Of a stretch of DNA of 64,000 bases, positions 19,170 to 61,661 are shown in pieces; position 1 is the stretch's first letter, and every line of letters starts with the position of its first letter. Below the pieces are notes generated by a model. That model was not told the DNA's origin, ran no database searches, and saw only the letters and a list, made by a program, of their open reading frames with translations. The translations under genes and the position numbers were made by a program. The DNA comes from Spirochaetales bacterium (GTDB taxonomy: Bacteria > Spirochaetota > Leptospiria > Leptospirales > Leptonemataceae): assembly GCA_015075425.1 (NCBI GenBank), contig JABTUL010000001.1, positions 2,046,001 to 2,110,000 of the forward strand. The letters are read 5' to 3'.

Positions 19170-20219
19170 TCAGTCATTCAGGTAATCGATATGAATCGAT
19201 TGATCGCAGGCCATCGGATGGACGATTTTACGACCAAGAACTGTCTCCAGCATGTATGGAGGTAAGCCATCGCCCGGAGACTTGATTGCAACATCCTCTC
19301 TGGTGAGAGTATGCCCCGCTTCCAGATCGCGAGCCGCTACAAGCTTCTTGCCCATTTTGATTAAAGGAGCAGCCTCCACCGGCTGGGTGACTTTGATGCC
19401 GTCCCCCAGAGCTTTACGCACCCTTTTCAAATCGCGGACAAGTTTTTTAAGTCCTATCGGCTCCAGAGAAAATGCGTGATCGGTGCCCTTCATCGCACGA
19501 TTGAGCGTAAAATGTTTTTCCATAACCCGCGCCCCGAGCACGAATGCGGCCGGCGCCATAGAGATACCGCTAAAATGGTCAGAAAGGCCGATCACCGTAT
19601 CAGGAAATCTCTCACGTAGAGTCGAAATTACCCGAAGATTCATTTCCTCCGGTTGCGCAGGATAAGATGCAGTACATTGCAGAATCGTGAAATTTTTATT
19701 GATCGGAGTCAGTGCTTCATAAACACGATCGATATCTTCCATTGTGCCACCACCTGTACTGATAACCAGTGGCTTTCCAAAGGCTGCGATGTATTTGATT
19801 AGTGGAATGTTCTTAAGATCACCGGATGCGATCTTGTATGCCGGCATGTCGAGCTTTGCCAGAAAATCAGCACTTGGAAAATCAAAAGCGGTTGAAAAAA
19901 AAGTAATACCAATCTCCTTTGAATAGGCCTGTAGCTCCCGGTATTCGCTTTCACCGAACTCAAGGAATTCCCGATGATCCCCGTAGGTAGCACCGAAACT
20001 ATTCGGATTGTCGTACGGTCGATGATAGTATTCACTGGTGAACAGCGCTCGGTTGTCCCGCTTCTGTAATTTTGCAGCATTGGCTCCGCAGTTTTTCGCG
20101 GCAAGAATCAGTTCTCTGGCCTGCTTAATATCTCCTTGATGATTGTGACCAATCTCTGCTATAACATAGCAGTCTGTTGAGTCATTTACTTCCAATCCGT
20201 CTATAACCAGTTGTCTCAT
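19170..20219 (-). CDS. neuB: NeuB-family synthase, NANS-like (9-phosphate type), first copy
   Basis: 349 residues: N-terminal TIM barrel plus C-terminal SAF domain (GDGLPPYMLETVLGRKI). It condenses PEP with an aldose or aldose phosphate. Several segments resemble human NANS as I remember it: RPYDNPNSFGATYGDHRE (NANS RPYTSKHSWGKTYGEHK), LQCTASYPAQPEEMNLRVIS, and KGTDHAFSLEP. NANS and KDN-9-P synthases use 6-phosphorylated hexoses, which agrees with the phosphatase next door. The ATG has AGGAAAG 8 bases upstream. The 26-base gap before it (20220-20245) is AT-rich and could hold part of a weak internal promoter, not resolved. Confidence 0.9.
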   Translation of the reverse strand: MRQLVIDGLEVNDSTDCYVIAEIGHNHQGDIKQARELILAAKNCGANAAKLQKRDNRALFTSEYYHRPYDNPNSFGATYGDHREFLEFGESEYRELQAYSKEIGITFFSTAFDFPSADFLAKLDMPAYKIASGDLKNIPLIKYIAAFGKPLVISTGGGTMEDIDRVYEALTPINKNFTILQCTASYPAQPEEMNLRVISTLRERFPDTVIGLSDHFSGISMAPAAFVLGARVMEKHFTLNRAMKGTDHAFSLEPIGLKKLVRDLKRVRKALGDGIKVTQPVEAAPLIKMGKKLVAARDLEAGHTLTREDVAIKSPGDGLPPYMLETVLGRKIVHPMACDQSIHIDYLND

Positions 20220-33522: not shown

Positions 33523-34335
33523 TCACGCGAAAAGAGAATCAAAATCAACCCGGGGAAATACCTCAAGTTGCCCGCCCCTTGTGGCATTGTATATAGAGAC
33601 CCCGTGCGAATTGCAGAAGTCGCGAGCCAGAGTGAACGCACGGGTAACATAGTCAACATGCGTATCAGTTATGGGAAAATGACGTTCTCCAGCTGGGAAA
33701 TAATTGGAGGTAAAATGTTCCGTATCCGTAGAAACCGTGTAGCGGTCACTTCTGACATCGAGCGATTTGCCCTTTGTGTCCCAGGAAAGGTCAACCCCGA
33801 GCAGATAGATTTCTTTAAAACCCATAAAATACGCTAATTGCATACTAATATATACGATCGTTTGCCCACAAAACACAGCTGGAACCGGAGTTGGATAAAA
33901 ATCCGGATTCCCTGAATAAGCTGTGGCCACTCGATTAAAAAATATCGTATCCTTACCCTGCTTGAGTTTGGGGTGTCGAATGACAATCTTGGTCGAACCC
34001 TTCAGCTTGTTGATCTCGTTGTAACTATATTCAATTACGGGAAAATCCTCAACGTTGTAGTAAGTGGGTCGCCATGCTGTCTTACCATATGCCAGATATA
34101 TCCGGTTCACACCAAATGTGATCTCATTCCACCTGTGCAACGTATTGAGATCATCAATTTTGAGACTTGGTCCATTACCGATAATGAAACACCTTTGCCC
34201 AGCGTGTCGGTCTTTCAAGGACAACAGGCGACGCTCATTCTTTCTGGATGAAAAGTTGTCTAACAGGGACCTGGCTTTATGTAACAGCACGTAAGGGATT
34301 TTGAGTGCGTCCTTCAACCAATGATTCCAGAGCAT
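33523..34335 (-). CDS. DUF115 / MptE-like protein, copy 1
   Basis: 270 residues. Characteristic CFIIGNGPSLKIDDLNTL, then NEITFGVNRIYLAYGKTAWRPTYYNVED, AVFCGQTIVYISMQLAYFMGF and IYLLGVDLSWDTKG. This is the DUF115 core (6-hydroxymethylpterin diphosphokinase MptE-like, Rossmann-like fold) also present in Maf motility accessory factors and in CstII-distant glycan enzymes. In glycan loci such proteins are thought to transfer or bind nonulosonic acids. Start is one base after the previous stop. Second copy at 58486. Confidence 0.8.
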   Translation of the reverse strand: MLWNHWLKDALKIPYVLLHKARSLLDNFSSRKNERRLLSLKDRHAGQRCFIIGNGPSLKIDDLNTLHRWNEITFGVNRIYLAYGKTAWRPTYYNVEDFPVIEYSYNEINKLKGSTKIVIRHPKLKQGKDTIFFNRVATAYSGNPDFYPTPVPAVFCGQTIVYISMQLAYFMGFKEIYLLGVDLSWDTKGKSLDVRSDRYTVSTDTEHFTSNYFPAGERHFPITDTHVDYVTRAFTLARDFCNSHGVSIYNATRGGQLEVFPRVDFDSLFA

Positions 34336-34336
34336 C

Positions 34337-35107
34337 TCAAGCTACCGGTGCATCATACGGCGTAGAGTTCGCTGTGAACCCACGCTCTTCCAACCAACTC
34401 AGCGACGCTGCAATCTGCCAGCCAGCATCAATATCACAACCAAAGGGGTGCGGAACCGGCAGGATCTTCTTACCCATCCATCTTTGGGGAAGCAGACCTT
34501 CACGAATATGCTCTAACGTATTGCCGCGTGTAACGGAGTGACTCATGTCTGCAAAGTAAACGTCGCCCTGGCTATCCCGATCACAAGAAAGGGTTGCAGG
34601 ATCTCCAAAAGTTTCAAAAGGAACGAATGGATCGAGATATCCGGAGGAATTCAGTTTCCGGGCGCGGAGCGGACTGTACATGTTCAATAGACTTACAGTG
34701 ACCGCTGAATCCGCCTCAGGGTTGGCCTCCAGGGAATCAATTGCCTGATCGATCAAATTCGCATCAACTGTCACCGCGTTACACATGAGTATGGCCACGT
34801 ACGCCGGTGTCACGCCGATGAACGTCCGCGCATTTTCATAGCCATGAATCAGAGCATCCTCAAATAGCGCCGTGTCGGTACACAATTCTGGCGGACGTTC
34901 GATTATTCTGAAACCAAATGCCTTTCCAGCATCAGCAATTTCGGGATCATCCGTTGATACAAAACCATAGTCCAGATGTCTGGAGTTCTTTGCGGCCAAC
35001 ATGGGATAATGCATGGCCGGACGCCCGAGTAAACGCAATGTATTCTTACCGGGCACTCCTTTTGAACCCTTTCGCCCCAGAATAATAGCAATGGCAGGTT
35101 TCTTCAT
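34337..35107 (-). CDS. NeuA-like cytidylyltransferase, second copy
   Basis: 256 residues from ATG 35107, overlapping the SDR stop (ATGA). IAIILGRKGSKGVPGKNTLRLLG is a variant of the CMP-sugar synthetase signature with Gly for the usual Ala. Then GFVSTDDPEIADAG and YVAILMCNAVTVDANLI, where the usual QPTSP substrate loop is replaced by MCNAVT. These changes suggest a substrate other than an ordinary nonulosonate. It ends a five-gene block with SDR, cupin, hydroxyacid dehydrogenase and phosphatase. Confidence 0.8.
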   Translation of the reverse strand: MKKPAIAIILGRKGSKGVPGKNTLRLLGRPAMHYPMLAAKNSRHLDYGFVSTDDPEIADAGKAFGFRIIERPPELCTDTALFEDALIHGYENARTFIGVTPAYVAILMCNAVTVDANLIDQAIDSLEANPEADSAVTVSLLNMYSPLRARKLNSSGYLDPFVPFETFGDPATLSCDRDSQGDVYFADMSHSVTRGNTLEHIREGLLPQRWMGKKILPVPHPFGCDIDAGWQIAASLSWLEERGFTANSTPYDAPVA

Positions 35108-35841
35108 AACTGGCCCCCATTCACATCCAGAACGGAGCCCGTCATATAGTCGGCGCCATCCGAGCATAGAAAGAGTATTGGGGCCACCTGATCTGCAATT
35201 GTGGCGATTCTTCTTAATGGAATAGCCTGGGATAGATTCTGAACCGCTTCCTGGCTCATGGAGCTCTCGAGCATTTCCGTCATTGTCTGTCCTGGGCAAT
35301 GCACATTAACATGGACGTTATATGGTCCAAGCTCAAAAGCCAACTGCCTCGACAGGCCGATCAAGCCTGACTTACTTGCAACATAATGCACGCCACTGAC
35401 CGGACTGCGCCAACGTGCTGCGATGGATGAGACATTGACAATCTTTCCTGAACGCCTGGGAACCATTCTTTCTGCTGCAAATTTACAGACGAGAAACACT
35501 GAACGCAGGTTGACCGACAATATTTCATCCCACTCCGCAGAGGAAATGCTATCCGCCTTCTTTGCAGCGTTAATCGCAGCACAATTTACCACTATATCAA
35601 GACTCCCCCTCTCATCCAGGGTAGCGAACAACCGTTCAATCTGAGATTGCTCCCGGAGATCCGTCGCTACGTAGAGGGCCTCTGCTCGAACTTGCCCGGG
35701 AAACCGGGAGGCATATACAACATCTGCACCCGCGTCAATCAGGGCCGCAACGACGCCACGCCCAATGCCACGACTGCCGCCAACGACAAGGGCTCGCTTT
35801 CCCTTAAAGTCGAAACTAATCTCCGTATACATGCGATACAT
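35104..35841 (-). CDS. Short-chain dehydrogenase/reductase
   Basis: 245 residues, classical SDR. RALVVGGSRGIGRGVVAAL (cofactor loop), DIVVNCAAINAA, IVNVSSIAARW with catalytic Ser, YVASKSGLIGL with Tyr-x3-Lys, and YMTGSVLDVNGGQL at the end. FabG-like. ATG 35841 overlaps the cupin gene by 26 bases; an ATG three codons on reduces this to 17. Probably reduces or oxidises a hydroxyl of the module-D substrate. Confidence 0.88.
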   Translation of the reverse strand: MYRMYTEISFDFKGKRALVVGGSRGIGRGVVAALIDAGADVVYASRFPGQVRAEALYVATDLREQSQIERLFATLDERGSLDIVVNCAAINAAKKADSISSAEWDEILSVNLRSVFLVCKFAAERMVPRRSGKIVNVSSIAARWRSPVSGVHYVASKSGLIGLSRQLAFELGPYNVHVNVHCPGQTMTEMLESSMSQEAVQNLSQAIPLRRIATIADQVAPILFLCSDGADYMTGSVLDVNGGQL

Positions 35842-36232
35842 CAGGTTTTGTGATTGCGAAGCGCATGCCGGGCTCGGGGCCGAGGCAAGTGATTTGATGT
35901 TTTTGGCCCTGGCGCACGATGACTATATCATGCGGTCCAACTTTTTGCAAACCAAGCCCTTCGATATACCATTCCCAGTGCCCTGATACGATTATCCAGC
36001 ATTCATCGGCGTCAGGATGAAAATGCTTCCGGTTACCTTCCCCGGGCATCTGGCGAATAAGGACTCCACCAAATCTATTGTTGTAAGCCAGCCGCACTGC
36101 CCAGGATCCTGTCCCCAATGCATCCTCAAGCTCAGCAACGCTGGTCGTTGCCCGGTTTTCCCATTGGGTCAGTTCGACCCGTCCCACTCCGTCATCCTGT
36201 AGCACTCGCGTAACGTCGTTTTCACCGTGCAT
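35816..36232 (-). CDS. Cupin-domain protein
   Basis: 138 residues. One double-stranded beta-helix: GGVLIRQMPGEGNRKHFHPD...ECWIIVSG, carrying the HxHx(n)E metal-binding motif, and GPHDIVIVRQGQKHQITCLG with the last His. Resembles metal-binding small cupins such as phosphomannose-isomerase-type or DUF-class sugar isomerases. A strong AAGGAG at the end of the upstream gene and a TAATG overlap show tight coupling. Catalytic role unknown. Confidence 0.78.
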   Translation of the reverse strand: MHGENDVTRVLQDDGVGRVELTQWENRATTSVAELEDALGTGSWAVRLAYNNRFGGVLIRQMPGEGNRKHFHPDADECWIIVSGHWEWYIEGLGLQKVGPHDIVIVRQGQKHQITCLGPEPGMRFAITKPDVSHVYGD

Positions 36233-37248
36233 TACATTCTCCTTTTTTCACTTTTCGCTTCAAAGCCGGCATGCATTTCGAGGCTGTGTGGTTCCGAGGG
36301 ATCCTGCCATTCGGCGGCCTTCGCCGGAAGAAAATACTGCACCAGTCCCCGGATCGCCTCTGATCCCATGGCCAGAATAGCCTCGCGCGCGCTGCCTCCA
36401 ATGTGAGGAGTTATAAGGAGATTGGGCAATTCGATCAGTTCTTTATCCTGAGGCGGCTCGGAGCGAAACACATCAAGTGCAGCCCCGGCGATCCTTCCCT
36501 CAATAAGGGCAGCCTTCAAAGCGGATTCGTCCACCAACCCACCACGGCTCGTATTGATCAAAAAAGCATGCCTCTGCATCATCTGGAGGGCTCGCTCACC
36601 AATGATATTTTCCGTAGAGGCCTCAAGCGGAAGGTGGAGAGAAACTACGTCTGCTTCCTGAAGAATTGTGGCCGTATTGACCTGTGTGGCACCATACGCC
36701 TGAGCTAGAAGGTCTTTGCGGAGCAAATCACTGAACATGAGCTTGCAATGAAATGGCTGCAGGAGTCTGAGCAGGTCTTCGCCAATGTTCCCGCATCCAA
36801 TCAAACCAACGGTTTTTCTGCTCAGTAGTGTTCCCCCGGATTTGTCCCAGATACCACCCTTAAGCTTGTGCCCGGTAAAAAAGACGTTCCGTTGCAAGGC
36901 CAGCATATAACAAAGAGCCAGTTCCGAAACGGAGCGCCGATTCACACCGGGACGGGAATATACCTGCAGATCATTCTTCCGGGCCGCCTCCAGATCAATA
37001 TTGTCGAGGCCAACTCCGTATTTGGAAACAACGCGCAGTCGTGGAAGGGATCGTATACTGGAACCGTCGAGCGCCTCCAGTCCTACAATGGCTCCATCCG
37101 CATCGGCCAAAAAATCAATAAGTTCGGCACCGGCAAAGCGGCGGCGATCGGCATTAATGGTTGCGTCGGGAAAGTAGCGGAATAGCCCCTGAACAAGCTC
37201 TTCATTTGCAGAAAATGAGGGGGAAGTGACTTTGATTTTTGGAGACAT
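36232..37248 (-). CDS. D-2-hydroxyacid dehydrogenase (phosphoglycerate dehydrogenase-like)
   Basis: 338 residues from ATG 37248, 4 bases after the phosphatase stop. Visible: VSKYGVGLDNIDLEAA, NRRSVSELALCYMLAL, TVGLIGCGNIGEDLLRLL (NAD loop), LINTSRGGLVDESAL with the conserved Arg, LDVFRSEPP with Glu, and ITPHIGGSA with the catalytic His. No regulatory ACT domain, so not the full serine-pathway SerA type. It interconverts a 2-keto and 2-hydroxy acid. Its place in a polysaccharide locus suggests an acid substituent, for example a glycerate- or lactate-like group; inference. Confidence 0.88.
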   Translation of the reverse strand: MSPKIKVTSPSFSANEELVQGLFRYFPDATINADRRRFAGAELIDFLADADGAIVGLEALDGSSIRSLPRLRVVSKYGVGLDNIDLEAARKNDLQVYSRPGVNRRSVSELALCYMLALQRNVFFTGHKLKGGIWDKSGGTLLSRKTVGLIGCGNIGEDLLRLLQPFHCKLMFSDLLRKDLLAQAYGATQVNTATILQEADVVSLHLPLEASTENIIGERALQMMQRHAFLINTSRGGLVDESALKAALIEGRIAGAALDVFRSEPPQDKELIELPNLLITPHIGGSAREAILAMGSEAIRGLVQYFLPAKAAEWQDPSEPHSLEMHAGFEAKSEKRRM

Positions 37249-37252
37249 GGCC

Positions 37253-37843
37253 TCAGGATCTAACGTGGAAATAGTAGATATTGTTTTTGCTGGCCGCTTC
37301 AAAATCTGTTGCGGAGTCTCCCACGAAAAGACATCGCCCTGGATTAAAATTATGATTATGTATAATTTTTTCTAAAATATTGATTTTAATAGCAGGGCTG
37401 CCGTGAACTTCATCAAAATAACGGGACCAGCCACGCTCCCTGACAATGTCCTGGAGTTCCGTTTCCGGTGTCCCTGAAACGACTGCGCAAAAAATCCCCG
37501 CTCGGCGAATGGACAAAAACGCCTCTGTCGCTCCGTTGATTTCGGGAGCACGAATAACTTTTTCTTTGACAATTTCACCAAACCGCGCGGCCATCAAGTC
37601 AATCAGATTCGGATCCCATGGAATCCCTTTCGACCGGAAGACATATTCGATTTTACGGAACCGATCCACGCCGCCATGCTTCTGATGATAGCTTGCAATC
37701 TCTTTTTGCGCCTCTTCGCCATGGTCGGAAAAAATCTCAGAGTAAGCGGCCGTCTTTATGGGCACAGAATCAACAAGTACACCGTCAAAATCAAAGAAGA
37801 CGGCCTGCAAAGGCTTTTCAAAGCGAAGAATCTGGCTAAGCAT
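37253..37843 (-). CDS. HAD-family phosphatase (phosphoglycolate phosphatase-like)
   Basis: 196 residues. AVFFDFDGVLVDSVPIKTAAY (nucleophile and acid Asp), helical C1 cap, CAVVSGTPETEL (motif II), KINIL (Lys motif) and CLFVGDSATDFEAA (Mg site). Length and cap fit Gph/beta-phosphoglucomutase relatives. Position between the LIC12162 transferase and the hydroxyacid dehydrogenase suggests it removes phosphate from an intermediate of module D. Confidence 0.88.
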   Translation of the reverse strand: MLSQILRFEKPLQAVFFDFDGVLVDSVPIKTAAYSEIFSDHGEEAQKEIASYHQKHGGVDRFRKIEYVFRSKGIPWDPNLIDLMAARFGEIVKEKVIRAPEINGATEAFLSIRRAGIFCAVVSGTPETELQDIVRERGWSRYFDEVHGSPAIKINILEKIIHNHNFNPGRCLFVGDSATDFEAASKNNIYYFHVRS

Positions 37844-37849
37844 TCTTTT

Positions 37850-39679
37850 TCAGGACGACAAAATTAAATCTGCCGTCAGCTCACGCAGCGAATAGATCTC
37901 ATCAAGACGTTCTTTGATGAACCGTACCCACTCTTCTTTCCAGTGCAGCGATGTCCGGCCAAATTGCTGGCAAAAACCCTTTCTGGCCTGCTGAACTTCA
38001 TCGGAGTACCACCATTCCTGTACGGAATCCCATACGCCATTGACATGCGCCGCAGCTTCAACCGGGTCCTGGAACAATATTCGTACTGACTTGAGTTCTT
38101 TAAAATATGGCTCAGCTTCTTCACAGATCGCGAAAATGTTTTCACTCCAGAGGGCGACTGTCGGGCAATTCATAACCAGAGTATCAATTAAGGCAGTGGA
38201 CAAATGATCTATCACCAGGAGACGGGACTGGCTGAAGCGGGGACGCGGGTCCTCCGCGGCCCACTCCCAGAACCTGACAATACCCGTTTGATCTGTGATG
38301 ATCTGGCGATCGGCATGCCCGTAGTCGTGTGCATAACCGCGATAGACCAACTGCGATTTCACACCTCCATCCAGGGCATTGATGAAGGCAATTTTGGCAG
38401 CTGTATGCGCAGCATGCGTGTGCGCAAGCAAAGCAGAATGAAGGCGGTAATTGTATGCTGGATGCTCTGTTGAAAGGAAAACCAACTCAGTGCCCGCTCC
38501 CATTACGTGCTCCGGTAACATCGAAAGCTCTGGGTCCGGCAGGGGATAGAATTTGGCCTTGTAAGGACTGTGACCTGTCCAGCCCCAGGTGATGAAACCC
38601 GTAGGAGATTGATACTCAGCAGCCGCCAGGGGGAAAGCAGCGTAGTTTCCGTATCCACCTCCATGTTGCTGGCAATAGACGGACCCGCCTGCCTCGATAG
38701 TTTCGGCTTCTTCCACGCCGAACCCACCCGGTGTAATACGTATTCCGGGCAGGACAGCAGATTTCCGCAGAGGCAAGTGGTAAAAGGATTCGGGCAAATG
38801 GTGGCAGAGTAAGCCTGTTACCAGAGTTTCAAACCTGCCTCGCGGGGTAAAGGTTTGCCCAAGACGATTTTCTAAGGCCTTGCGATCACTCAGCCCTGCC
38901 GTGCGAATTTCTGCGGCGGGCTGGCGGACCATTTGCGAGGCCTGCAAGGCAATGTCCTTTGCGTCCTCTTTAGACATCCTGTACGGCTGTATATGGACAG
39001 GGGGAATGAGTCGCGCAGATGTGTTGCGTCCCCTGATCATCGAACGAACTGTTTGCTTTACCGTCCTCAGCACCACCGCTGACCAGTTCGACTCCCTTGC
39101 CCCATGGGATTCCGCAGTCCGCGACGGGAGTGGGTAACAAGAAAGCGAAGTACTCACCGGGACCAATTCAAAGTACGCAAAGTCCAGCCTATGCAATATT
39201 TCAGAAAATAAACACCAGTTAAACTCATGTGTGTACCAGTGTTTGAACAGAGCCTCGGGATTTTGCGCGATTTGCCCGAACTCAAAAGACCGACAGGTTT
39301 TGACCGAGAATCTTTCGCTACCGGAAGCGAAGGCTTCAAGATGCAGAAAACGGTCGTAAACGATGCCGAGCCAGGCATGGAACCAGTAGGCCAGGATTGA
39401 GGACCAGAATCTCGGAGCCTTATGAACACCGTAATGGACATTTAGCGCATGCCCGATAGGGACCATTAGCCTCTCCCGAAGATCTTCCAGATACTGTCCC
39501 GCCACGCGCAAGCGGGCCACCCATTCAGATCCGGTCCAGGGAGATTCTCCCAGGGAAAACCCATGCAGAAGATTGCTCGCCTCCTTTCTAAAGGCAAAGC
39601 ACCAGGGTCCCAGAAAGAGAGCGTTCTCTGGCTCTGCGGGCCACGTCTCCTCCATACCTGTCAGAACCAGTTCACGCAT
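37850..39679 (-). CDS. LIC12162-family transferase
   Basis: 609 residues from ATG 39679 (MRELVLTGMEETW), 5 bases after the previous stop. The early NALFLGPWCFAFRKE (FLGPWC) opening is the hallmark I associate with the LIC12162 putative transferase family first named in Leptospira. The C-terminal half looks like a capsule-type GT-B domain: RLLVIDHLSTALIDTLVMNCPTVALWSENIF. It is likely a glycosyl- or related transferase using the neighbouring activated sugar. This family name is also part of the evidence for a leptospiral host. Confidence 0.75.
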   Translation of the reverse strand: MRELVLTGMEETWPAEPENALFLGPWCFAFRKEASNLLHGFSLGESPWTGSEWVARLRVAGQYLEDLRERLMVPIGHALNVHYGVHKAPRFWSSILAYWFHAWLGIVYDRFLHLEAFASGSERFSVKTCRSFEFGQIAQNPEALFKHWYTHEFNWCLFSEILHRLDFAYFELVPVSTSLSCYPLPSRTAESHGARESNWSAVVLRTVKQTVRSMIRGRNTSARLIPPVHIQPYRMSKEDAKDIALQASQMVRQPAAEIRTAGLSDRKALENRLGQTFTPRGRFETLVTGLLCHHLPESFYHLPLRKSAVLPGIRITPGGFGVEEAETIEAGGSVYCQQHGGGYGNYAAFPLAAAEYQSPTGFITWGWTGHSPYKAKFYPLPDPELSMLPEHVMGAGTELVFLSTEHPAYNYRLHSALLAHTHAAHTAAKIAFINALDGGVKSQLVYRGYAHDYGHADRQIITDQTGIVRFWEWAAEDPRPRFSQSRLLVIDHLSTALIDTLVMNCPTVALWSENIFAICEEAEPYFKELKSVRILFQDPVEAAAHVNGVWDSVQEWWYSDEVQQARKGFCQQFGRTSLHWKEEWVRFIKERLDEIYSLRELTADLILSS

Positions 39680-39684
39680 GAAAC

Positions 39685-40422
39685 TCAGGCCGTCACCGGA
39701 GGGGGCCAGAGTTCTGCGTAAACTTTGCATACCTCGCTGGCATTGCGCGGATTCAGCCCTCTCGCGATTATGTTCTGCATCAGTGCTTCCATTCGGACAA
39801 AATCCAATTCCGTATCGATATCCAGCTTGATCCAGGGAAAACGAATTTCCGGGGGAGCCTCAAAAGTGCAACCGGCTCGTCCGGAAGTCTGGCGAACAAC
39901 TGCGGTTACGTGTTCTCGGTCTTCCGGACTCGCCTCCGGATAGCATTCCCTGAGCGCCTGTACGGAAACGATCTCTGCTCCCAGACCATCCGGATATCCA
40001 TTTCCCTCTGAGGGCACATGATTATAGGCATAGGCGTGATTGGATTTAGCATAAAAATTACAGAGGCGATCAATTTCATCGGGATTTACGAAAGGATTGT
40101 CAGCACATATTCTCAGAATAGTGTCGAAATTATACTGCCTGGCTGCTTCCAGAAAGCGGAGCATGACGTCTTCCAGCGGTCCGCGGTAAACCCGGACTCC
40201 CATCCTTGCCGCCAGTTCCGCCAGCGGGTCATCAGACCGATCGCGACTGGTCAAAAGATAGACCCCGGAGACAAGCGAAGCCAGGGCAACACTTTCCATT
40301 ACCCATTCCAGCAAGGGCTTCCCGCAGATCACGCGCAGTGACTTCCCCGGCAATCGAGTGGATAGCATGCGCGCCTGAACAAAGGCAGGATAGCGAGATA
40401 CACGGATTTGATGTTCTGGCAC
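39685..40422 (-). CDS. SpsF-like cytidylyltransferase
   Basis: 245 residues from GTG 40422, one base after the wzt stop; the longer frame into wzt is unlikely. AFVQARMLSTRLPGKSLRVICG is the SpsF/KdsB-related nucleotide-binding signature, then GVYLLTSRDRSDDPL, VYRGPLEDVMLRFLEAA and RICADNPFVNPDEID. SpsF-type enzymes are CMP-sugar transferases of spore-coat and NulO loci. It pairs with the LIC12162 gene 5 bases downstream. With 15623, 34337 and 60936 it makes four such enzymes. Confidence 0.85.
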   Translation of the reverse strand: MPEHQIRVSRYPAFVQARMLSTRLPGKSLRVICGKPLLEWVMESVALASLVSGVYLLTSRDRSDDPLAELAARMGVRVYRGPLEDVMLRFLEAARQYNFDTILRICADNPFVNPDEIDRLCNFYAKSNHAYAYNHVPSEGNGYPDGLGAEIVSVQALRECYPEASPEDREHVTAVVRQTSGRAGCTFEAPPEIRFPWIKLDIDTELDFVRMEALMQNIIARGLNPRNASEVCKVYAELWPPPVTA

Positions 40423-40423
40423 A

Positions 40424-41743
40424 CTATTCCACAAATGGTGCATCCGGATCCAGCCGAACAGTATTCCAATCTGCGGGAAACAGCAGCGGTCCCGCCCTTC
40501 CAGGCAGAAAGGTGGTGAGCTGTAGACTTTCTTCATCTCCCAGTTCTATCCTGAACTCAATTGCAGCATCCGGCTTGTCCATTGTCGTACTCTGTCCGCC
40601 GGAGATACCGGCCGCGCAGCGCAGCTCATACCGGGCTGCGGGAAGCCGCAGCGCCGGGATCGTAATGGTTGCCCTATACCGCCCCGGAAAATGGGTCTGT
40701 AGAGAAGGTTCCAGATCCGTGTCAGCCGAATGCAGGAGCCATTCACCATCCCGGTAAATAGTAAAATTTATCATCATGTTTTCTATGAGACGACGAGTTT
40801 CATATTCAAACACCAGGCGGAAGGACTCGTGGATGGTAAAACTATTGCGTGGCTGTCCGGATTCATCCAGAATAGACATTCTCAGAAACTGGAAGTCTTG
40901 TTCGGGCTTGACCGGGAATTGAACGATCGCCGATTCCGTTTCCAGCTCGCTCTGTTCGGCGAGCATATTCTTGTAGGATTCAATTACTTCACCCGGCGCT
41001 CCGCGAGCAACGATCCGTCCATCGTGGAGCAGGATCAAACGAGTGCAGAGTTTTTTTATAGAAGACATATTATGACTGACAAAAAGCACCGTCCGGCCTC
41101 TGCCACTGGCTTCCCGCATTCGCCCCAGACATTTCTTCTGGAATGCGGCATCACCAACGGCCAGAACCTCATCGACAATCAAGATTTCTGAATCCAGATG
41201 GGCAGCGACGGCAAAAGCCAGGCGCACATACATACCGCTCGAATAACGTTTAACCGGGGTGTCTATGAAATCCTCAACTTCTGAAAAGTCCACAATTTCG
41301 TCAAACTTCCGACTTACCTCGCTTCTACTCATCCCCAGTATTGCCCCATTGAGAAAAACATTCTCACGTCCCGTGAGTTCTGGATGAAAGCCTGTTCCGA
41401 CTTCAAGTAGACTGGCAATACGACCGCGCATGCGAACAACTCCCCGGGTCGGTACAGTAATTCTGGACAGGATTTTTAACAGCGTCGATTTCCCCGCACC
41501 GTTGCGGCCAATAATACCCAGTATCTCGCCATTGTCTACGGTTAGCGAAACATCACTCAGCGCCGACAATACCTGTCCTGGGCCAATACGATGCTTCTCA
41601 ATGCCCACCACAAGACTGTTGGGATCTTCCAGCCCACGCAAGCGGGCCCACCAGCTTTCGATATCCTGCCTGAGAGTGCCATAACCGATGGTGCCAAGGC
41701 GGTAGTCTTTAGACACCGAGTCTATTTCAATTACAGGATCCAT
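40424..41743 (-). CDS. wzt: O-antigen ABC exporter ATPase Wzt with carbohydrate-binding domain
   Basis: 439 residues. ATPase: IIGRNGAGKSTLLKIL (Walker A), YSSGMYVRLAFAVAA (signature with the SSGM form of O-antigen exporters), ILIVDEVLAVGDAAF (Walker B), VLFVSHNMSSI (switch His). Residues about 285-439 form an extra C-terminal beta domain (LRMSILDESGQPRNSFTI...) typical of Wzt_C, which binds the finished glycan end in systems such as E. coli O9a. This suggests chains are completed in the cytoplasm and recognised by a terminal cap. Follows wzm by 2 bases. Confidence 0.93.
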   Translation of the reverse strand: MDPVIEIDSVSKDYRLGTIGYGTLRQDIESWWARLRGLEDPNSLVVGIEKHRIGPGQVLSALSDVSLTVDNGEILGIIGRNGAGKSTLLKILSRITVPTRGVVRMRGRIASLLEVGTGFHPELTGRENVFLNGAILGMSRSEVSRKFDEIVDFSEVEDFIDTPVKRYSSGMYVRLAFAVAAHLDSEILIVDEVLAVGDAAFQKKCLGRMREASGRGRTVLFVSHNMSSIKKLCTRLILLHDGRIVARGAPGEVIESYKNMLAEQSELETESAIVQFPVKPEQDFQFLRMSILDESGQPRNSFTIHESFRLVFEYETRRLIENMMINFTIYRDGEWLLHSADTDLEPSLQTHFPGRYRATITIPALRLPAARYELRCAAGISGGQSTTMDKPDAAIEFRIELGDEESLQLTTFLPGRAGPLLFPADWNTVRLDPDAPFVE

Positions 41744-43278: not shown

Positions 43279-44396
43279 CTTTCTGCTCGCAGACTTATCA
43301 CCTTCTGGATTCCGCCGGCTATTTGGGCGGCGTATCCGGGGCCAACCTGATTATCGACCCAGAAATTAAGAATGTGGTCTCCAATGGCTGCGGCAATCGG
43401 TGTCTTACAGAAGGGTTCTTTAGCGGTTTCGAGAAAATTACTTACCGGCGGAAACCAACTGCTCACCGGAATTTTCCTTTCCAGGAAGAAGTTCAGGATG
43501 TCATTTCGAAAAGGCTTCCCGCGCTCTTTACTCACTAAAACGGAAAGGCGCCAGGGAACAGCCCCTGCTGTCAAAGGACAGACTTCCAGATCCGGCAACT
43601 CCGCAAGGGTTTCACTCAAACCTGCGTAGCGCTGCCGGCGCTCATTTAAGTTTTGATCCAGTTCCGCGAGCGAGCGCGCTATAGATTCTACCCGTGATGA
43701 ATCGAAGCGAAATTCCATGCTGGACCGGACCGAGAGGGCCAGAGGTCGAAAAATTGCGCCCGCTTCAGATAAATCCTGCCCAACATAGCGATTGTAAATC
43801 TGAGTATGCGTCATTGATAGATTTCCTAATTTTTGCAGCATACTTTCTGAAAGAGATGGTAGTCCTTCAACTTGATCCTTTATATTACGTTCTATAGCCG
43901 GCTCATCAAAGAGGAGCGCCCCACCATGTCCCGCGGATACAATCTTACCGTGGCCAAAGCTGAACACGGAGAAAACGCCAGTTTTACCCACCGATTTTCC
44001 ACTGATCGTGGCACCCAAAGCTGCAGCACAATCCTCAATCAAAGGAACTCCTCCTTTGGCACAGACATTCTGAATCATCTGCATATCGCATGGATTTCCA
44101 TATGCGTGAACGGCGATGAGTGCGGCCGGCATATGGGCCAGCGTCGAAACATCGACCCCCATGGTTCGAGCATCGACATCCAGGTACACCGGGAAGTTGC
44201 CGGAAAAATATACGGCCAGTGGAACATTGTAGCACACATTATTGGGCAGAGCTACTGGCTGGCCGGAAAAACCAAGGGAGCGGATGGCCAGCGACAGTGC
44301 GGTTGTACCATTACCCACGAGGTAACAGTACCTGCGACCGGTTAATTCCCGCAAAAAACCAGAAATCCAGTCAACAGTCGGATAATATTTATTCAC
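43275..44396 (-). CDS. DegT/DnrJ/EryC1-family aminotransferase, short N-terminus
   Basis: 373 residues from a GTG at 44396 that overlaps the radical SAM stop by 8 bases. PLP landmarks: VGNGTTALSLAIRSL, PLIEDCAAALGA and SVFSFGHGKIVSAGHGGAL with the Schiff-base lysine. The lysine loop FGHGKIVSAGHGG differs from the usual TTGEGG form, and the usual N-terminal residues are replaced by YYPTVDWISGFLREL. A divergent sugar aminotransferase. A non-amino-transfer role (some homologues dehydrate at C3) is possible. Confidence 0.8.
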   Translation of the reverse strand: MNKYYPTVDWISGFLRELTGRRYCYLVGNGTTALSLAIRSLGFSGQPVALPNNVCYNVPLAVYFSGNFPVYLDVDARTMGVDVSTLAHMPAALIAVHAYGNPCDMQMIQNVCAKGGVPLIEDCAAALGATISGKSVGKTGVFSVFSFGHGKIVSAGHGGALLFDEPAIERNIKDQVEGLPSLSESMLQKLGNLSMTHTQIYNRYVGQDLSEAGAIFRPLALSVRSSMEFRFDSSRVESIARSLAELDQNLNERRQRYAGLSETLAELPDLEVCPLTAGAVPWRLSVLVSKERGKPFRNDILNFFLERKIPVSSWFPPVSNFLETAKEPFCKTPIAAAIGDHILNFWVDNQVGPGYAAQIAGGIQKVISLRAES

Positions 44397-45483
44397 CTAT
44401 AGTCTGGCTTCGATTAAGATAGTTCTCAATCACAAAAACTCTACCATTAATCGTAGCCGATTCATTGCTCTCAGTTTTGCGCGGGTAGTAACATTTCTTA
44501 CATGGATTTATTTCCATAAATCCATTCTTCTTTTTTTGTTGTTCGCGGATCGCTTGCATTGCGTCCCCGTGCCAGATACTGTGAATTGATTCTTGATGTG
44601 CATCGCCTAAAACGACTTCAACATTATCATCATTGCTACACAATGCAACCGTCCCATTTGCACTTATTGTGATCCTTTCGTATTGCTGAGGGCAGACGAA
44701 ACTATCCTCATAAACTATATTGGTGTCATTGTGTAAATAATCAATCAGAGGATTGTAAGCTATTAAATCGGTTATCGGTGCAAAAATATTGTAGAATTCC
44801 TCAGCGCGATCTCTCACTGCAGGCCAGACTCCCTGTATCTTAATTACAGGCTTCTGCAGCCCATGCTCCTCTTTGTAGGCTGCAATCCTTTGCAATTTTT
44901 TAACTGTATCACGAAATTTCAGAGGTGCCCGAATCCGGTCGTAGATCTCATCCATTCCATCTATAGAAATAGTAATCCAATCCACACCGGCGGTCTGCAG
45001 TTGAATGAAATACTCCAATTCCAGCTTCCATCCGTTCGTCAGAAATGATACCTCCTGTATTCCTTTCTCTTTGGCGTAGCGTACTACATCTACCAATTTC
45101 TTGTGGAGTGTGGGTTCGCCCACCCAGCTCAGCCGCAGAGCATAGACTTTGCCTGCGATCTCGTCAATAATACGCTTCGCCAGGTCTGCATCCATTAATC
45201 CTTTATTGGCTTTACTGGACCTTTGATGAATAAACTCCGAGGTGGTTGTTGGACACATCGGACACTTCAGATTGCAGACTGACGCCATCTCAAGGTCCAC
45301 CAGCAGAGGATAGTCGCGTACTATTTGCTTTTCAGGGAGCTCCCGCCACATTCGCCGGTAATCGGCATACTCCGTCTCCCAACCCGAACCTAATTTTTTA
45401 GCAAAGGCAGCAATCCTCTCCGGCGGTTCAAGCTCAAAGTGACCCTTATTAATCGGAATATACTTTTCTTGATTCTCTTCCAT
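44389..45483 (-). CDS. Radical SAM / SPASM-like enzyme
   Basis: 364 residues. EMASVCNLKCPMCP holds the CxxxCxxC cluster site. LRLSWVGEPTLHKKLVDVV is the GGEP-like SAM region, and VSFLTNGWKLEL and ITISIDGMDEIYDRIR are typical core strands. The C-terminal part has CPQQYERITISANGTVALCSNDD and NPCKKCYYP, a SPASM/twitch-type auxiliary cluster. In sugar loci these can dehydrogenate or epimerise sugars, or act on peptides. Codon use looks more AT-rich than the neighbours. Coupled to the FemAB-like gene upstream (TAATG). Confidence 0.85.
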   Translation of the reverse strand: MEENQEKYIPINKGHFELEPPERIAAFAKKLGSGWETEYADYRRMWRELPEKQIVRDYPLLVDLEMASVCNLKCPMCPTTTSEFIHQRSSKANKGLMDADLAKRIIDEIAGKVYALRLSWVGEPTLHKKLVDVVRYAKEKGIQEVSFLTNGWKLELEYFIQLQTAGVDWITISIDGMDEIYDRIRAPLKFRDTVKKLQRIAAYKEEHGLQKPVIKIQGVWPAVRDRAEEFYNIFAPITDLIAYNPLIDYLHNDTNIVYEDSFVCPQQYERITISANGTVALCSNDDNVEVVLGDAHQESIHSIWHGDAMQAIREQQKKKNGFMEINPCKKCYYPRKTESNESATINGRVFVIENYLNRSQTIGE

Positions 45484-46478: not shown

Positions 46479-47834
46479 TCAATTTGCACTACACAATCCT
46501 TGCTTCTCGAGTTCCAGAGCTATGGAATAAAGTTGATCAAACGGTACGCCCGAGCGCTCAGCCATAGAGAGCAATGAATGTTCACCATCAGCAAGAAAGA
46601 GAAACCAGGTAATTGCATCGACCGGATCGGCCTGCCGGGGAGTTAGCACGTCGCTAGTGCCGTCTTCTATTTTATCACCTTCCCCGGCCGCCGATTGTTT
46701 CAATGCTCCGCCTGTTTGTGGATAAAGACCCCGGCGGCCCAACTGTACTTCACCATTGGGGTTTAAGGAACGGAAGGTGGACTCCTTTTCCAGCTTTTGA
46801 ATACAGGACCAGTAAAGTCGCAATGTGCTGACCAGGTTTTGAGGAGTGACAAAAGACAAATCATCCAGGGAGGTATGATAAAAGGAATACTCATAGTATT
46901 TATCCCTGGTAATTGATGCGACAGGAATGCGAAACCCTGGGGAAGAATACTGCCGCTCATCGCTTCCGTCCGGAGCAAACGGATACTCGACAGGCTCAAC
47001 GGTGTATTCACGCATAGTTTGCCTGATCACCCGATCAATCAGATGATTCCCCTGGAAAGTGGTCTTGAAGCCAAATGGACCCGGCCCGGCACAGGTGGTA
47101 ACGACAAAGCCGCCGGAGCTCTGGCGCATGATGCTCTCATGGTGTGCTAGATAAGCAATCGCACCGATGGTTTCCGGCAAAATCAGAAATCGGTAACTTT
47201 TATTCAGTTTTAAACTTTGATTCATCAGGCGGTGCAATAACGTAGTAAGTACGACACCGGACAAATTGTCATTGGCCATTGAGGGATGACAACAGTATGT
47301 TGATACTAAATATTCATTGCTCTCTGGTGGACCAATGATGGATTCCAGTAAACTCAGACTTCCGGGTGCAAGTGTTGCATCAATAAAAACTTCGAAGGTG
47401 TCCGACTGATCTAGCTGTCCTAGCTGACGGTCTGTCAGACAGAAGCCCCAATTTCTACTGTAGTATGAGGTCCGGTAAGGAATGGCATCCGGCAGAGATG
47501 GGAGGCTGTGCAGATGGGGCCTGAGTTCATCAAAGGACAGGCGCTTATGAAATGGTTCACTGTATCCCATGACATGAAGATTATTTTTGCGGAAGGAGAC
47601 GATTTCCCTTCCGCTCGAATCCTTGATCCATGCGTCAGAAATATTCCACTCATCCGGGATTTGCCAGTCAAAGCACTGCGTTCCCGATGGATACTCGACC
47701 AGGTTAAATTCTGTATATTCCTGAATGATTGCGAGACTTTCTCGCAGTCCATTTCCTGTGATACTTCGACATATCGGAAAGAGCCGCGTGAGGAGCTCTT
47801 CTGCCAGTCTTTCCTGTTCGTCCCAGTTAATCAT
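46479..47834 (-). CDS. M28-like aminopeptidase-fold protein (DUF4910/DUF2172 type)
   Basis: 451 residues. Middle region has the zinc-ligand pattern of M28 peptidases: CCHPSMANDNLSG (His and Asp), LILPETIGAIAYL (Glu), APDGSDERQYSSPG (Asp) and YEYSFYHTSLDDLSF (His). The C-terminal 70 residues look like a winged helix (AITWFLFLADGEHSLLSMAERSG). Such proteins are repeatedly found in polysaccharide and NulO loci, but their substrate is not settled; amide hydrolysis on an acyl-amino sugar is one idea. TGATG overlap with the synthase gene upstream makes a linked function likely. Confidence 0.8.
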   Translation of the reverse strand: MINWDEQERLAEELLTRLFPICRSITGNGLRESLAIIQEYTEFNLVEYPSGTQCFDWQIPDEWNISDAWIKDSSGREIVSFRKNNLHVMGYSEPFHKRLSFDELRPHLHSLPSLPDAIPYRTSYYSRNWGFCLTDRQLGQLDQSDTFEVFIDATLAPGSLSLLESIIGPPESNEYLVSTYCCHPSMANDNLSGVVLTTLLHRLMNQSLKLNKSYRFLILPETIGAIAYLAHHESIMRQSSGGFVVTTCAGPGPFGFKTTFQGNHLIDRVIRQTMREYTVEPVEYPFAPDGSDERQYSSPGFRIPVASITRDKYYEYSFYHTSLDDLSFVTPQNLVSTLRLYWSCIQKLEKESTFRSLNPNGEVQLGRRGLYPQTGGALKQSAAGEGDKIEDGTSDVLTPRQADPVDAITWFLFLADGEHSLLSMAERSGVPFDQLYSIALELEKQGLCSAN

Positions 47835-48895
47835 CAGGAAAGGAGAACGTCCTGCCAGGTAAGGATATGATCCTTCTCAAGAGATCCGGTGGCCTTAAGT
47901 CCAATGATCTCATCCCAATGCACCGGGGAAATTCCGAAGGCCGGCCTCTTGAATGTCAGGTGAGACTCCGTAATAACCTCACCCGCCTCTATTCTTTTCT
48001 GCACCACAATGGAACGCCTTGCATTGCGCCGGCTCAGTTGCTCAGAATCGATGGGTTGTTTCAAAAGGTTGCCTTTGACGGAATAGAACCGGTCCAGATT
48101 CGCCCGAAACGTCTTTAGATCCAGGACATCCATCGCATGGTAATGGTCGTTTCCCGGGAGTGATTTGTCATGAGTGAAGTGCTTTTCGATGATGCGCGCG
48201 CCCATGGCCACAGCCGCAGTCAGAACAAACATGGTTGTATCCGGGTGCGTGTGATCAGAATAACCGACGATATGATCGGGGAAAACACGTGCCAGGTCAT
48301 TCATCATGCCAAGGTGCGCATTGCCATCCTGACAGGGATAATTCAAAATACAATGCATAAGGGCAATATCTTTTGCGCCGGCCTGCTTAAGCGTCCGAAT
48401 CGCCCACTCTATCTCCGCTATGCTGCTACAACCCGTTGATAGAACCACCGGTTTACCTGTAACGGCTACAGCGCGGAGAAGCGGCGTCACTGTAATGTCT
48501 GCCGAGGCTATTTTAAAGAAGGGCATCCAGGGATCAAGAAAACTGACTGAAGCCAGATCAAAAGGCGTCGAAAGAAAATCTATTCCTACAATGGAACAAT
48601 ATTTTGCAAGTTCCTCGTATTCTGTCTGTCCAAAGCTATCATGCTTTTTAAATAATTCGAATTGGGATAGCGTGGGCTCCCTGGTAGTATCCCAGTAGGC
48701 CGGTGAATTGCGCGATGCCAGGGTTTCTGCTTTGTAGGTCTGAAATTTTGCCGCATCCGCTCCCCCTTCTTTAGCCAGATCTATCAGGTGACGGGCCGTC
48801 TCCAGGGACCCTTCATGATTAACCCCAATTTCAGCAATGATATAAGGACGTGAATCTTCCCTGATTTCCCTGGATCCTAAAATAATACGTTTCAT
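47834..48895 (-). CDS. neuB: NeuB-family synthase, second copy (class unclear)
   Basis: 353 residues: TIM barrel plus SAF domain (RSIVVQKRIEAGEVITESH). Visible: YIIAEIGVNHEGSLETARHLI, AAKFQTYKAETLAS, FLSTPFDLASVSFLDP, FKIASADITVTPLL, VVLSTGCSSIAEIEWAI, VGYSDHTHPDTTMF and IIEKHFTHDKSLPGNDHYHAMD. It makes a 3-deoxy-ulosonic acid from PEP, but it has neither the NANS RPY...GxTYG insert of copy 1 nor the LDRNLPGPDHAASLEP text of copy 3. Flanked by the M28-like gene and the KdnA-like aminotransferase, so it probably makes their substrate. Confidence 0.88.
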   Translation of the reverse strand: MKRIILGSREIREDSRPYIIAEIGVNHEGSLETARHLIDLAKEGGADAAKFQTYKAETLASRNSPAYWDTTREPTLSQFELFKKHDSFGQTEYEELAKYCSIVGIDFLSTPFDLASVSFLDPWMPFFKIASADITVTPLLRAVAVTGKPVVLSTGCSSIAEIEWAIRTLKQAGAKDIALMHCILNYPCQDGNAHLGMMNDLARVFPDHIVGYSDHTHPDTTMFVLTAAVAMGARIIEKHFTHDKSLPGNDHYHAMDVLDLKTFRANLDRFYSVKGNLLKQPIDSEQLSRRNARRSIVVQKRIEAGEVITESHLTFKRPAFGISPVHWDEIIGLKATGSLEKDHILTWQDVLLS

Positions 48896-60936: not shown

Positions 60937-61661
60937 TATACCTGTTTAGACAGGCTTTCATACAAGGAGAGCGCACTGTCAAAATCTGCGCGCGTATCAA
61001 TGTCTGCACAAAGTTCCTTGGAAACTGGCATCCCTATAGCATCCGGTGAATAAAAGTTCCGATCCCTCAAATATTTCCCCACGGGGGCAAGGTAGAAAAG
61101 GCCTGCCGGGAAAAAAAATACGGGCAGAGATTGCCGATTCACAGAATTTTGCGGTCTTACCAGCAGGAACTGAACAAAACCCTCCGGAGATTGCTCCATT
61201 AAGTAAGCCATCTTGTTTTCGGCCGCAAAGATTGTTACCAAATTGTTAACTTCACTCCGTCGGTATCGAAAGTAATAATCCAGGGACTCGTCCACGAATC
61301 CCACCGGCCGAAGTGGCTGAGTCGGTTGAAGCAACACCAGGTAATCATATTCCCGGCCTTCCCGTTCTTTGAGAAAACCCAGGGCATGGATCAGGGCATC
61401 ATTGATGTTGCTGTCGTCGGTGGCAAGTTCTGCCGGTCTCAAAAACGGTGCTCGCGCACCCCATTGCCTCGCAATCTCGCAGATATCCTCGCTGTCAGTT
61501 GTCACAACCACATCCGTCAAAAGATGCGACTCCATGGCCCTTTCAATTGTCCAGGCGATGAGCGGCTTACCGGCAAAATTCATTGTGTTTTTACCCGGTA
61601 AACCCTTCGAGCCAGCACGTGCAGGAATCAGACAAAGAATTCGCAGCTCCGTACTTATCAT
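60936..61661 (-). CDS. legF: CMP-legionaminic acid synthetase (NeuA family)
   Basis: 241 residues from ATG 61661, overlapping the synthase stop (ATGA). LCLIPARAGSKGLPGKNTMNFAG, VVVTTDSEDICEIARQWGA, LVLLQPTQPLRPVGFVDE (substrate loop) and PAGLFYLAPVGKYL. Standard CMP-NulO synthetase. Its order LegI-LegF-LegG suggests a CMP-legionaminic acid product. Confidence 0.9.
   Translation of the reverse strand: MISTELRILCLIPARAGSKGLPGKNTMNFAGKPLIAWTIERAMESHLLTDVVVTTDSEDICEIARQWGARAPFLRPAELATDDSNINDALIHALGFLKEREGREYDYLVLLQPTQPLRPVGFVDESLDYYFRYRRSEVNNLVTIFAAENKMAYLMEQSPEGFVQFLLVRPQNSVNRQSLPVFFFPAGLFYLAPVGKYLRDRNFYSPDAIGMPVSKELCADIDTRADFDSALSLYESLSKQV

Follow-up and report, generated by a model that had tools for sequence, protein, structure and literature searches.

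Seven genes on the minus strand of the Spirochaetales window (the whole 64,000-nucleotide stretch that was analysed) may form a cassette for a CMP-ulosonate-type sugar acid other than the NulOs and Kdo; its activation would fall to a distinct family of NeuA-like cytidylyltransferases (NEUAL). The chances of this reading are put at about even. The broader proposal, that NEUAL serves a class of CMP-activated sugar acids not yet described, whose ulosonate 2-oxo group is created oxidatively by a D-2-hydroxyacid dehydrogenase (HADH), is tentative and on balance doubtful. The NeuB and KdsA routes obtain this group by condensation with PEP.

The minus-strand open reading frames and family models bear out the seven contiguous, overlapping genes named in the original prediction. 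From 40422 to 34337 these encode an SpsF-like cytidylyltransferase (39685-40422; CTP_transf_3, 81.8 bits), a LIC12162-family transferase with a GT-B-like C-terminal part (37850-39730), a HAD phosphatase (37253-37843; HAD_2, 67.4 bits), the HADH (36232-37248; 2-Hacid_dh_C, 177 bits), a small cupin with an HxH...E motif (35816-36232; Cupin_2, 33.9 bits, cut-off 27.2), an SDR oxidoreductase (35104-35841; adh_short_C2, 162 bits) and NEUAL (34337-35107; PF02348), a putative CMP-transferase for an acidic sugar. CTP_transf_3 also matches NEUAL (59.2 bits; cut-off 22.6 for both). The HADH reading frame begins with TTG at 37302; the ATG near 37248 is the likelier start. The spacings are -46 nt (SpsF-like/LIC12162), +6 (LIC12162/HAD), -1 (HADH/cupin), -26 (cupin/SDR) and -4 (SDR/NEUAL), and HAD/HADH is -50 nt from the TTG or about +4 from the ATG.

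The boundary drawn around these genes was too narrow. An MptE-like, GT42 sialyltransferase-like protein (33523-34335, minus strand; PF01973, 47.0 bits, cut-off 34.6) begins 1 nt past the NEUAL stop. Directly upstream, a Wzt ABC-transporter ATPase identified from its reading frame and gene order (40424-41743, minus strand) ends 1 nt from the SpsF-like start and provides the operon context; its homologue in genome G011 is 49% identical. Further upstream in the same run lies a radical SAM/SPASM protein, possibly part of the system (44389-45483, minus strand; Radical_SAM 60.4 and SPASM 47.5 bits). From this gene to the MptE-like gene all gaps are 15 nt or less. NeuB is absent from the seven genes, as had been predicted, and three NeuB-like genes lie elsewhere in the window (19170-20219, 47834-48895, 61658-62722). 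These could supply a NulO. Two further NeuA-like genes are present at 15623 and 60936. No gathering-level Rfam match was found within the window, and promoter and terminator scans gave counts not above those of shuffled sequence.

NEUAL was found at 34 loci spread across many phyla, with Omnitrophota, Chloroflexota, Acidobacteriota and Pelagibacteraceae among the carriers, at 45-60% identity, and identity falls steeply from this family to the ordinary CMP-NulO synthetases. The carrier at L044 is a named isolate, Salidesulfovibrio brasiliensis. A search of plasmid records returned only relatives below 60% identity, one of 47 spanning most of the query. The PseF model scored 66.2 bits (cut-off 205.7) and the KdsB model 28 bits (cut-off 234); NEUAL is thus not a KdsB. 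The predicted structure (pLDDT 91) has the fold of CMP-NulO synthetases, with 6ifd as the best match (Z 23.7). NEUAL shares this fold with NeuA and PseF (1eyr, 6ifd, 9ftc; Z 20-24) at about 20-26% identity, together with the CTP-binding residues, the metal-binding Asp pair and an aligned carboxylate-binding Arg. In the 33 rows used for the structure and pocket alignments (the window included; L047 and L068 left out), S15, K21 and N22 are kept in all and Arg12 in 32. D225 and D227, kept in 33/33, align with Asp209 and Asp211, which bind metal in NeuA according to the portion of PMC2901514 consulted. The same portion gives Arg165 as the carboxylate-binding residue of the Neisseria meningitidis enzyme. 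Arg177, the residue paired with it in the MAFFT alignment (the HMMER alignment sets this loop differently), is R in 33/33 NEUAL rows; among the ordinary synthetases R is present in 16 of the 24 rows, out of 30, that have a letter in this column.

The pocket otherwise differs. Alignment of the window protein with 32 homologues, to which it is 45-59% identical, gave 48 invariant columns, and N142, R148, R150, D178, Q180, D182 and D187 are invariant residues peculiar to NEUAL. Compared with CMP-NulO synthetases, NEUAL has N110, R148 and R150, DRDSQGD in place of the RQxLP type, M188 in place of G and a PQxWMG insertion (P207-Q208-x-W210-M211), where 30/30 ordinary rows have a gap. Position 108 (the Gln104 column) is F, M, H or L, and position 178, the Q of the RQxLP-type motif, is D in 33/33 rows; the ordinary control rows have Q in only 10/30 at the Gln104 column and in 23/30 at the Gln166 column. 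The altered motifs noticed in the original prediction are supported, and judged by sequence the gene at 34337 belongs to a family separate from the ordinary CMP-NulO synthetases.

A variant NulO might still be the substrate, with the 2-oxo acid coming from a cluster NeuB and with HADH, SDR and cupin only decorating it. The three NeuB-like genes of the window, the PF03102 (NeuB) matches in 18 of the 19 NEUAL genomes examined and the identity of the nearest solved relatives as CMP-NulO synthetases favour this explanation. It is nevertheless considered unlikely: NeuB-cluster genes occur near NEUAL at only 6/34 loci; NEUAL has no consistent NeuB partner; G322 carries NEUAL with no NeuB match and G321 with a 36-bit match only; and the RQxLP-type motif and NG turn of the ordinary rows are replaced in 33/33 NEUAL rows. 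The NEUAL genomes that lack NeuB are small, and probably incomplete.

To the reading of a sugar acid other than a NulO, the gene neighbourhoods of the 34 loci add a recurrent association. Module-type HADH was present near NEUAL at 15/34 loci, module-type HAD at 11, the EPIM1 family at 26, radical SAM (RSAM) at 22 and the WW transferase at 20, each against 0/30 control loci (L073-L104 from the same scan, minus L076 and L078, the latter a duplicate of L046). The neighbour profiles include case members, which inflates case scores, and leave-one-out values were computed separately; score thresholds were chosen after the score gaps were known. The loci are non-independent, and only 21 have flanks of 6 kb or more in each direction. 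HADH, HAD and EPIM1 are each absent from many of them, and none of the scored partners is present at L062, although both of its flanks reach 6 kb or more. L045 encodes a fusion of an HADH with a NEUAL paralogue, and L047 shares this 597-aa architecture.

The window is an atypical NEUAL member, lacking EPIM1 (best score 67 bits) and any WW transferase match, the commonest NEUAL partners. SpsF-like genes above 100 bits occur at 2/34 loci, and neither the cupin, which is window-specific, nor the MptE-like protein has a homologue at any of the 34; SpsF and cupin are not conserved partners of NEUAL. Alternatively, an O-antigen locus undergoing recombination could carry the genes as passengers that are unrelated and share no single pathway, as the lack of EPIM1 and WW and the non-conservation of SpsF, LIC12162 and cupin would allow. 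This is thought quite improbable in view of the frames from SpsF to NEUAL, which overlap or lie within 6 nt, the HADH-NEUAL paralogue fusion, the HADH clade described below, and the joint recurrence of NEUAL, HADH and HAD across phyla. The set is taken to be more than chance because this last association recurs in other phyla; the three genes stay together in relatives rather than being scattered.

Phylogenetic analysis placed the window HADH inside a clade of module HADHs (support 97/99), apart from SerA-type paralogues. L047 was left out of the HADH alignment and tree, and L064 (masked bases) also out of the tree; the paralogues came from 12 whole genomes and G000, with 18 among the matches listed. 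Against a module profile built without it, the window protein scored 278 bits and the genome's own SerA 231. SerA, D-3-phosphoglycerate dehydrogenase, belongs to the same 2-hydroxyacid dehydrogenase superfamily, and a separate SerA-like protein of 541 aa is encoded in the genome; the TIGR01327 SerA model gave 207 bits on the window HADH, below its cut-off of 454. The HADHs that adjoin ordinary NeuA in G013 and G018 (L109 and L110; 151 and 156 bits) were outside the module clade. The window HAD scored 200 bits against the module profile built without it, with controls at 124 or less and leave-one-out values of 179-304. The window radical SAM protein gave 175 bits against the module profile (best control 83), and G011 holds such a gene (202 bits) without NEUAL. 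The window SDR, at 174 bits with controls up to 201, is not distinguishable from background SDRs and is at most a possible module orthologue.

The best solved match of the HADH profile is the phosphoglycerate dehydrogenase 1wwk (324 bits), which would fit a different chemistry. HADH and HAD could convert 3-phosphoglycerate to hydroxypyruvate or another 2-oxo donor, which an HpcH/HpaI-type aldolase would join to an aldehyde, giving a 3-hydroxy-ulosonate for activation by NEUAL. In G034 a PseF-like cytidylyltransferase, HAD (175 bits), HADH (415), EPIM1 (429) and an MptE-like homologue lie together, with an HpcH/HpaI aldolase side by side with HAD and HADH, and an HpcH/HpaI gene (94 bits) is present in the window's genome. 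HADH thus need not replace condensation, since it coexists with the aldolase in G034. The genome's HpcH/HpaI copy, however, is about 82 kb outside the window, relatives of the G034 aldolase are found at 0 of the 34 NEUAL loci, and there is little probability in favour of this scheme.

LIC12162 had been predicted to carry out the final transfer. The protein is a full-length match to TIGR04331 (302.9 bits, cut-off 225; model positions 1-584 of 585), a family with, to our knowledge, no established function, and is present in one copy in the genome. Its predicted structure has a pLDDT of 73, and in a fold search restricted to residues 240-615 this part resembled WecB-type epimerases and TagF (Z 13.5-14.3), which is the basis of the GT-B assignment. 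Comparison with the WW transferase family by hhalign gave a probability of 17.9 (E 0.0014). LIC12162 homologues lie near NEUAL at 4/34 loci and at 3/30 control loci, with no enrichment, and among 41 genomes, the window's own or related, none of the three other LIC12162 carriers has an orthologue of the NeuA-like gene. These results rule against LIC12162 as the dedicated transferase.

The likeness of the GT-B part to TagF (Z 13.6) and TarL (Z 12.4) would agree with a CDP-linked polyol, phosphonate or phosphorylated acid that LIC12162 transfers as those enzymes do. Such a product is regarded as very improbable, since the best alignments of NEUAL are with CMP-NulO synthetases, the Arg aligned with the carboxylate-binding residue is retained, the surroundings of NEUAL show no enrichment of LIC12162, and PEP mutase is above cut-off in only 1/35 genomes. 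The original prediction allowed CMP or CDP activation of a non-ulosonate, perhaps with an acid or polyol group: a CMP-activated acid other than a NulO is supported, and the CDP-polyol is disfavoured by the predicted CMP-NulO-synthetase structure of NEUAL and its retained Arg. A phosphonate route, prompted by the dehydrogenase beside a cytidylyltransferase and a radical SAM gene, was rejected on the same PEP mutase count; the sole gene above cut-off is in G000, about 0.7 Mb from the window.

For the CMP-activated acid, the MptE-like gene appears to be a better transferase candidate than LIC12162 and most likely the best one. A profile of four MptE-like sequences matched 1ro8 (E 5.9e-8), 2p2v (E 7.5e-6) and 5mu5 (E 0.0014), remotely and over part of the chain; a single-sequence search returned only 8sd5 (E 0.93). 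We take 1ro8 to be Cst-II, a GT42 enzyme, and 5mu5 to be Maf (the match table names sialyltransferases and an uncharacterized protein). The likeness would thus be to GT42 sialyltransferases (Cst-I, Cst-II) and Maf flagellin transferases. MptE-like homologues adjoin EPIM1 in G034 and a NeuA-HAD fusion in G249.

The genes are proposed to be a donor-sugar cassette within an ABC-transporter-type surface polysaccharide operon. The acid would be made by HADH and HAD together with SDR and cupin. HADH would most likely act on a free or phosphorylated 2-hydroxy (aldonic) acid and oxidise it to the 2-oxo form, and may thereby be the source of the 2-oxo group, as NeuB or KdsA is in other routes; with the group made in this way, no condensation of pyruvate or PEP would be needed. 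The SDR could adjust keto and hydroxy groups of the acid, the cupin could act as isomerase or epimerase, and HAD would strip a phosphate ahead of activation. NEUAL would then move CMP from CTP onto this small 2-oxo sugar acid, the GT42-like neighbour would transfer the activated residue, and LIC12162 might be one more GT-B transferase involved in building this polysaccharide.

The order of steps would resemble the Kdo pathway, in which KdsA makes the 2-oxo acid and KdsC removes the phosphate before activation with CTP. The window set differs in having HADH in place of KdsA or another aldolase, and NEUAL in place of KdsB. In G011 a KdsB (289 bits, cut-off 255) and an HpaI-type aldolase occupy a comparable place near LIC12162, SDR and MptE-like genes, and this cassette fits a CMP-ulosonate slot. 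The SpsF-like gene shares its cytidylyltransferase domain with Bacillus subtilis SpsF, assigned to the CMP-legionaminic acid pathway in the portion of PMC7439481 consulted; it is of another family than NEUAL, and no clear Leg genes are among the window's seven.

The CMP-linked glycan donors known to us are few, namely NulOs, Kdo and its kin, and some phosphonates. No such cassette is described in the titles and abstract openings of the open-access papers listed for these enzymes and sugars. A NEUAL family with its own invariant pocket, linked to a dehydrogenase instead of NeuB, would extend these donors by a further class. The set may be a sign of a bacterial coat component not yet described, made through an enzyme family that is uncharacterised but widespread, and the new donor class would help in reading many unexplained surface-polysaccharide clusters of uncultured bacteria.

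Genes from a radical SAM protein (45483-44389) to an MptE-like protein (34335-33523) lie in a single run on the minus strand, with every intergenic gap at 15 nt or less. Reading downstream, the radical SAM gene is followed by DegT, methyltransferase and Wzm genes in that order, then by Wzt (41743-40424), an SpsF-like protein (40422-39685), LIC12162 (39730-37850), a HAD protein (37843-37253), a D-2-hydroxyacid dehydrogenase (HADH; ORF 37302-36232, with an ATG near 37248), a cupin (36232-35816), an SDR (35841-35104) and a NeuA-like cytidylyltransferase, NEUAL (35107-34337). The families of the run were borne out by Pfam and NCBIfam. The original prediction took seven of these genes, SpsF-like to NEUAL, as a likely route to a CMP- or CDP-activated non-ulosonate. 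By family and gene order its list was correct and the observed set as a whole is confirmed, but the list ended 1 nt short of the MptE-like gene, and its interpretation was partly confirmed. At another site in the genome (contig 1, 1340026-1340841), a PEP mutase with full score (384 bits) marks a phosphonate pathway that has no connection with this cassette.

A scan of contigs from 84,980 species gave 64 loci. At 34 of them the protein is 45-60% identical to NEUAL over nearly its whole length; the remaining loci show at most 36% identity over long stretches, or short partial matches. Removal of one duplicate (L046 and L078 being a pair) and addition of a member from genome G038 (52% identity), found by a separate genome search, gave the 34 NEUAL loci used here. 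Among 296 genomes of the phylum, 27 have matches at 1e-10, and only the window's own genome (586 bits) and G038 (263) hold members by score, the next match being at 69. The alignment of 33 NEUAL sequences has 48 invariant columns. With a profile built without the window, window NEUAL scored 368 bits, against 83 and 58 for the window's other NeuA-like genes and 104 for the best control. On sequence comparison, the NeuA-like protein is a family of its own. At L068 (9944-11452) NEUAL carries a fused C-terminal half that resembles a methyltransferase and has a relative encoded as a stand-alone gene at other loci.

The predicted NEUAL model (pLDDT 91) best matches CMP-NulO (nonulosonate) synthetases (6ifd, Z 23.7, rmsd 2.4, 198 aligned; 1eyr, Z 23.0). 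To compare the pocket, 33 NEUAL rows were aligned jointly with 30 rows of ordinary NeuA and three window proteins. NEUAL retains both metal Asp as well as the CTP residues. Arg165 is the Neu5Ac carboxylate residue according to docking and mutation work in PMC2901514; NEUAL Arg177 aligns with it, an equivalence that is only probable because the HMMER alignment gives that loop another register. Residues N110, N142, R148, R150, D178, Q180, D182, D187 and M188 are invariant (33/33 rows), as are P207-Q208 and W210-M211 within an insertion. Ordinary rows seldom or never have N142, R150, D178, Q180, D182, M188 or the insertion; Arg at the R148 column also occurs in 8 of the 30. This pattern is consistent with an enzyme that uses CTP to act on another carboxylated substrate. 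That substrate may still be a NulO, a reading kept because the window contains NeuB, as do 18 of the 19 genomes tested, although one NEUAL genome lacks NeuB and another has only a weak 36-bit match. The three NeuB-like genes of the window (19170-20219, 47834-48895, 61658-62722) suggest that a single polysaccharide cluster involves several NulOs or related acids.

To define the partners of NEUAL, the ORFs at all 34 loci were grouped into clusters, and profile thresholds were placed at score gaps. EPIM1, an extended SDR, was found in 26 loci, radical SAM/SPASM in 22, the GT-B-like transferase family WW in 20, classical SDR in 18, HADH in 15, HAD in 11, a HisC-like aminotransferase in 9 and an IolO-like TIM barrel in 5. 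At the same thresholds, EPIM1, radical SAM/SPASM, HADH, HAD and WW were absent from all 30 control loci with ordinary NeuA, where SDR occurred in 8 and LIC12162 in 3. One-sided Fisher tests on these non-independent loci gave 1.2e-5 for HADH, 3.8e-4 for HAD and 3.0e-11 for EPIM1. Leave-one-out scores of members stay high (HADH 306-496, HAD 179-304). L062 has no partner among those scored, and partners are absent from L041, a 5.6-kb contig. Most WW proteins (e.g. L042 13344-15242) are 600-700 aa long; the family has a conserved WW motif and almost no Pfam matches beyond weak ones to DUF6716 and Glyphos_transf. Outside the window, these proteins probably serve as the usual transferase of the NEUAL product.

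The window genes were scored against module profiles built without the window. HADH reached 278 bits, controls at most 188 and the genome's own SerA-like protein 231; by these scores window HADH is a divergent module member. HAD scored 200 bits versus 124 for controls, radical SAM 175 versus 83, and SDR 174 versus up to 201. EPIM1 reached only 67 bits in the window and WW had no match there. In a 34-row tree, window HADH lies on a long branch within a 97/99 group that also holds the 13 other module rows; 18 paralogues from 12 module genomes and the window's own genome fall outside it. A 597-aa protein at L045 (10956-12746) fuses a divergent NEUAL-like domain, a NEUAL paralogue, to HADH, and L047 (9739-11529) has the identical architecture; the CTP motif in the first domain of both appears altered. 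At L042 and L066 a second cytidylyltransferase abuts HADH, which parallels the two cytidylyltransferases of the original prediction, the window's second being SpsF-like. In two same-family genomes a different 2-hydroxyacid dehydrogenase type overlaps ordinary NeuA (L109 5619-7272, L110 14529-16266).

Genome G034, of the same class, carries in a row a PseF-like cytidylyltransferase, HAD, HADH, a cyclase-family protein, an HpcH/HpaI aldolase, EPIM1 and an MptE-like gene. Because of this row, HADH and HAD could alternatively supply hydroxypyruvate to an aldolase, a rival that is still alive. In G011, of the same family, wzm, wzt and mt2 homologues precede LIC12162, a SIS isomerase and an SDR, followed by an AroB-related protein (TIGR04425), an HpaI-type aldolase, KdsB, Gfo/Idh, a methyltransferase and an MptE-like gene. 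CMP-ulosonate enzymes therefore occupy the same slot in related clusters. The AroB-related (467 bits), aldolase and KdsB genes adjoining LIC12162 in G011 (L106 3217-5990) may represent a further unusual route to a CMP-ulosonate. At three Pelagibacteraceae loci, EPIM1 and NEUAL have a 6-phosphogluconolactonase-family gene as neighbour (L069 by scan; L070 and L072 by cluster membership), and IolO-like epimerases are present at five NEUAL loci. Together with G034 and G011, these neighbours point to sugar-acid chemistry.

Transfer of the product had been ascribed to LIC12162. Its model, of modest confidence, is a GT-B protein over residues 240-615 with WecB-type epimerases (Z 14.3) and TagF (Z 13.6) as fold neighbours. 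LIC12162 is not enriched near NEUAL, and the MptE-like gene is preferred. A profile of four MptE-like homologues matches the GT42 sialyltransferase Cst-II (1ro8, E 5.9e-8) and Maf (5mu5, E 0.0014). Maf proteins are described as transferring NulO onto flagellin (PMC11339370). The homologues are few (4 genomes at 1e-5 among the 296 of the phylum); they adjoin EPIM1 in G034 and a NeuA-HAD fusion in G249, and lie within the LIC12162 cluster of G011. From the profile matches and these neighbourhoods, we infer that the GT42-like protein at 33523-34335 would transfer the CMP-activated residue. The polysaccharide cluster has a second MptE-like (PF01973) gene at 58486-59514, the first being the one with the GT42 profile match; PF01973 is named for a pterin kinase, a misleading label in this setting.

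In the proposed route, HADH would form a 2-oxo acid, HAD would remove phosphate, the SDR and cupin would set stereochemistry, NEUAL would add CMP and the GT42-like protein would transfer the residue. The best-supported step is the one in which NEUAL uses CTP to activate a carboxylated sugar. The cassette is a new version of the CMP-ulosonate type, with an uncharacterised cytidylyltransferase family at its core and a putative product.
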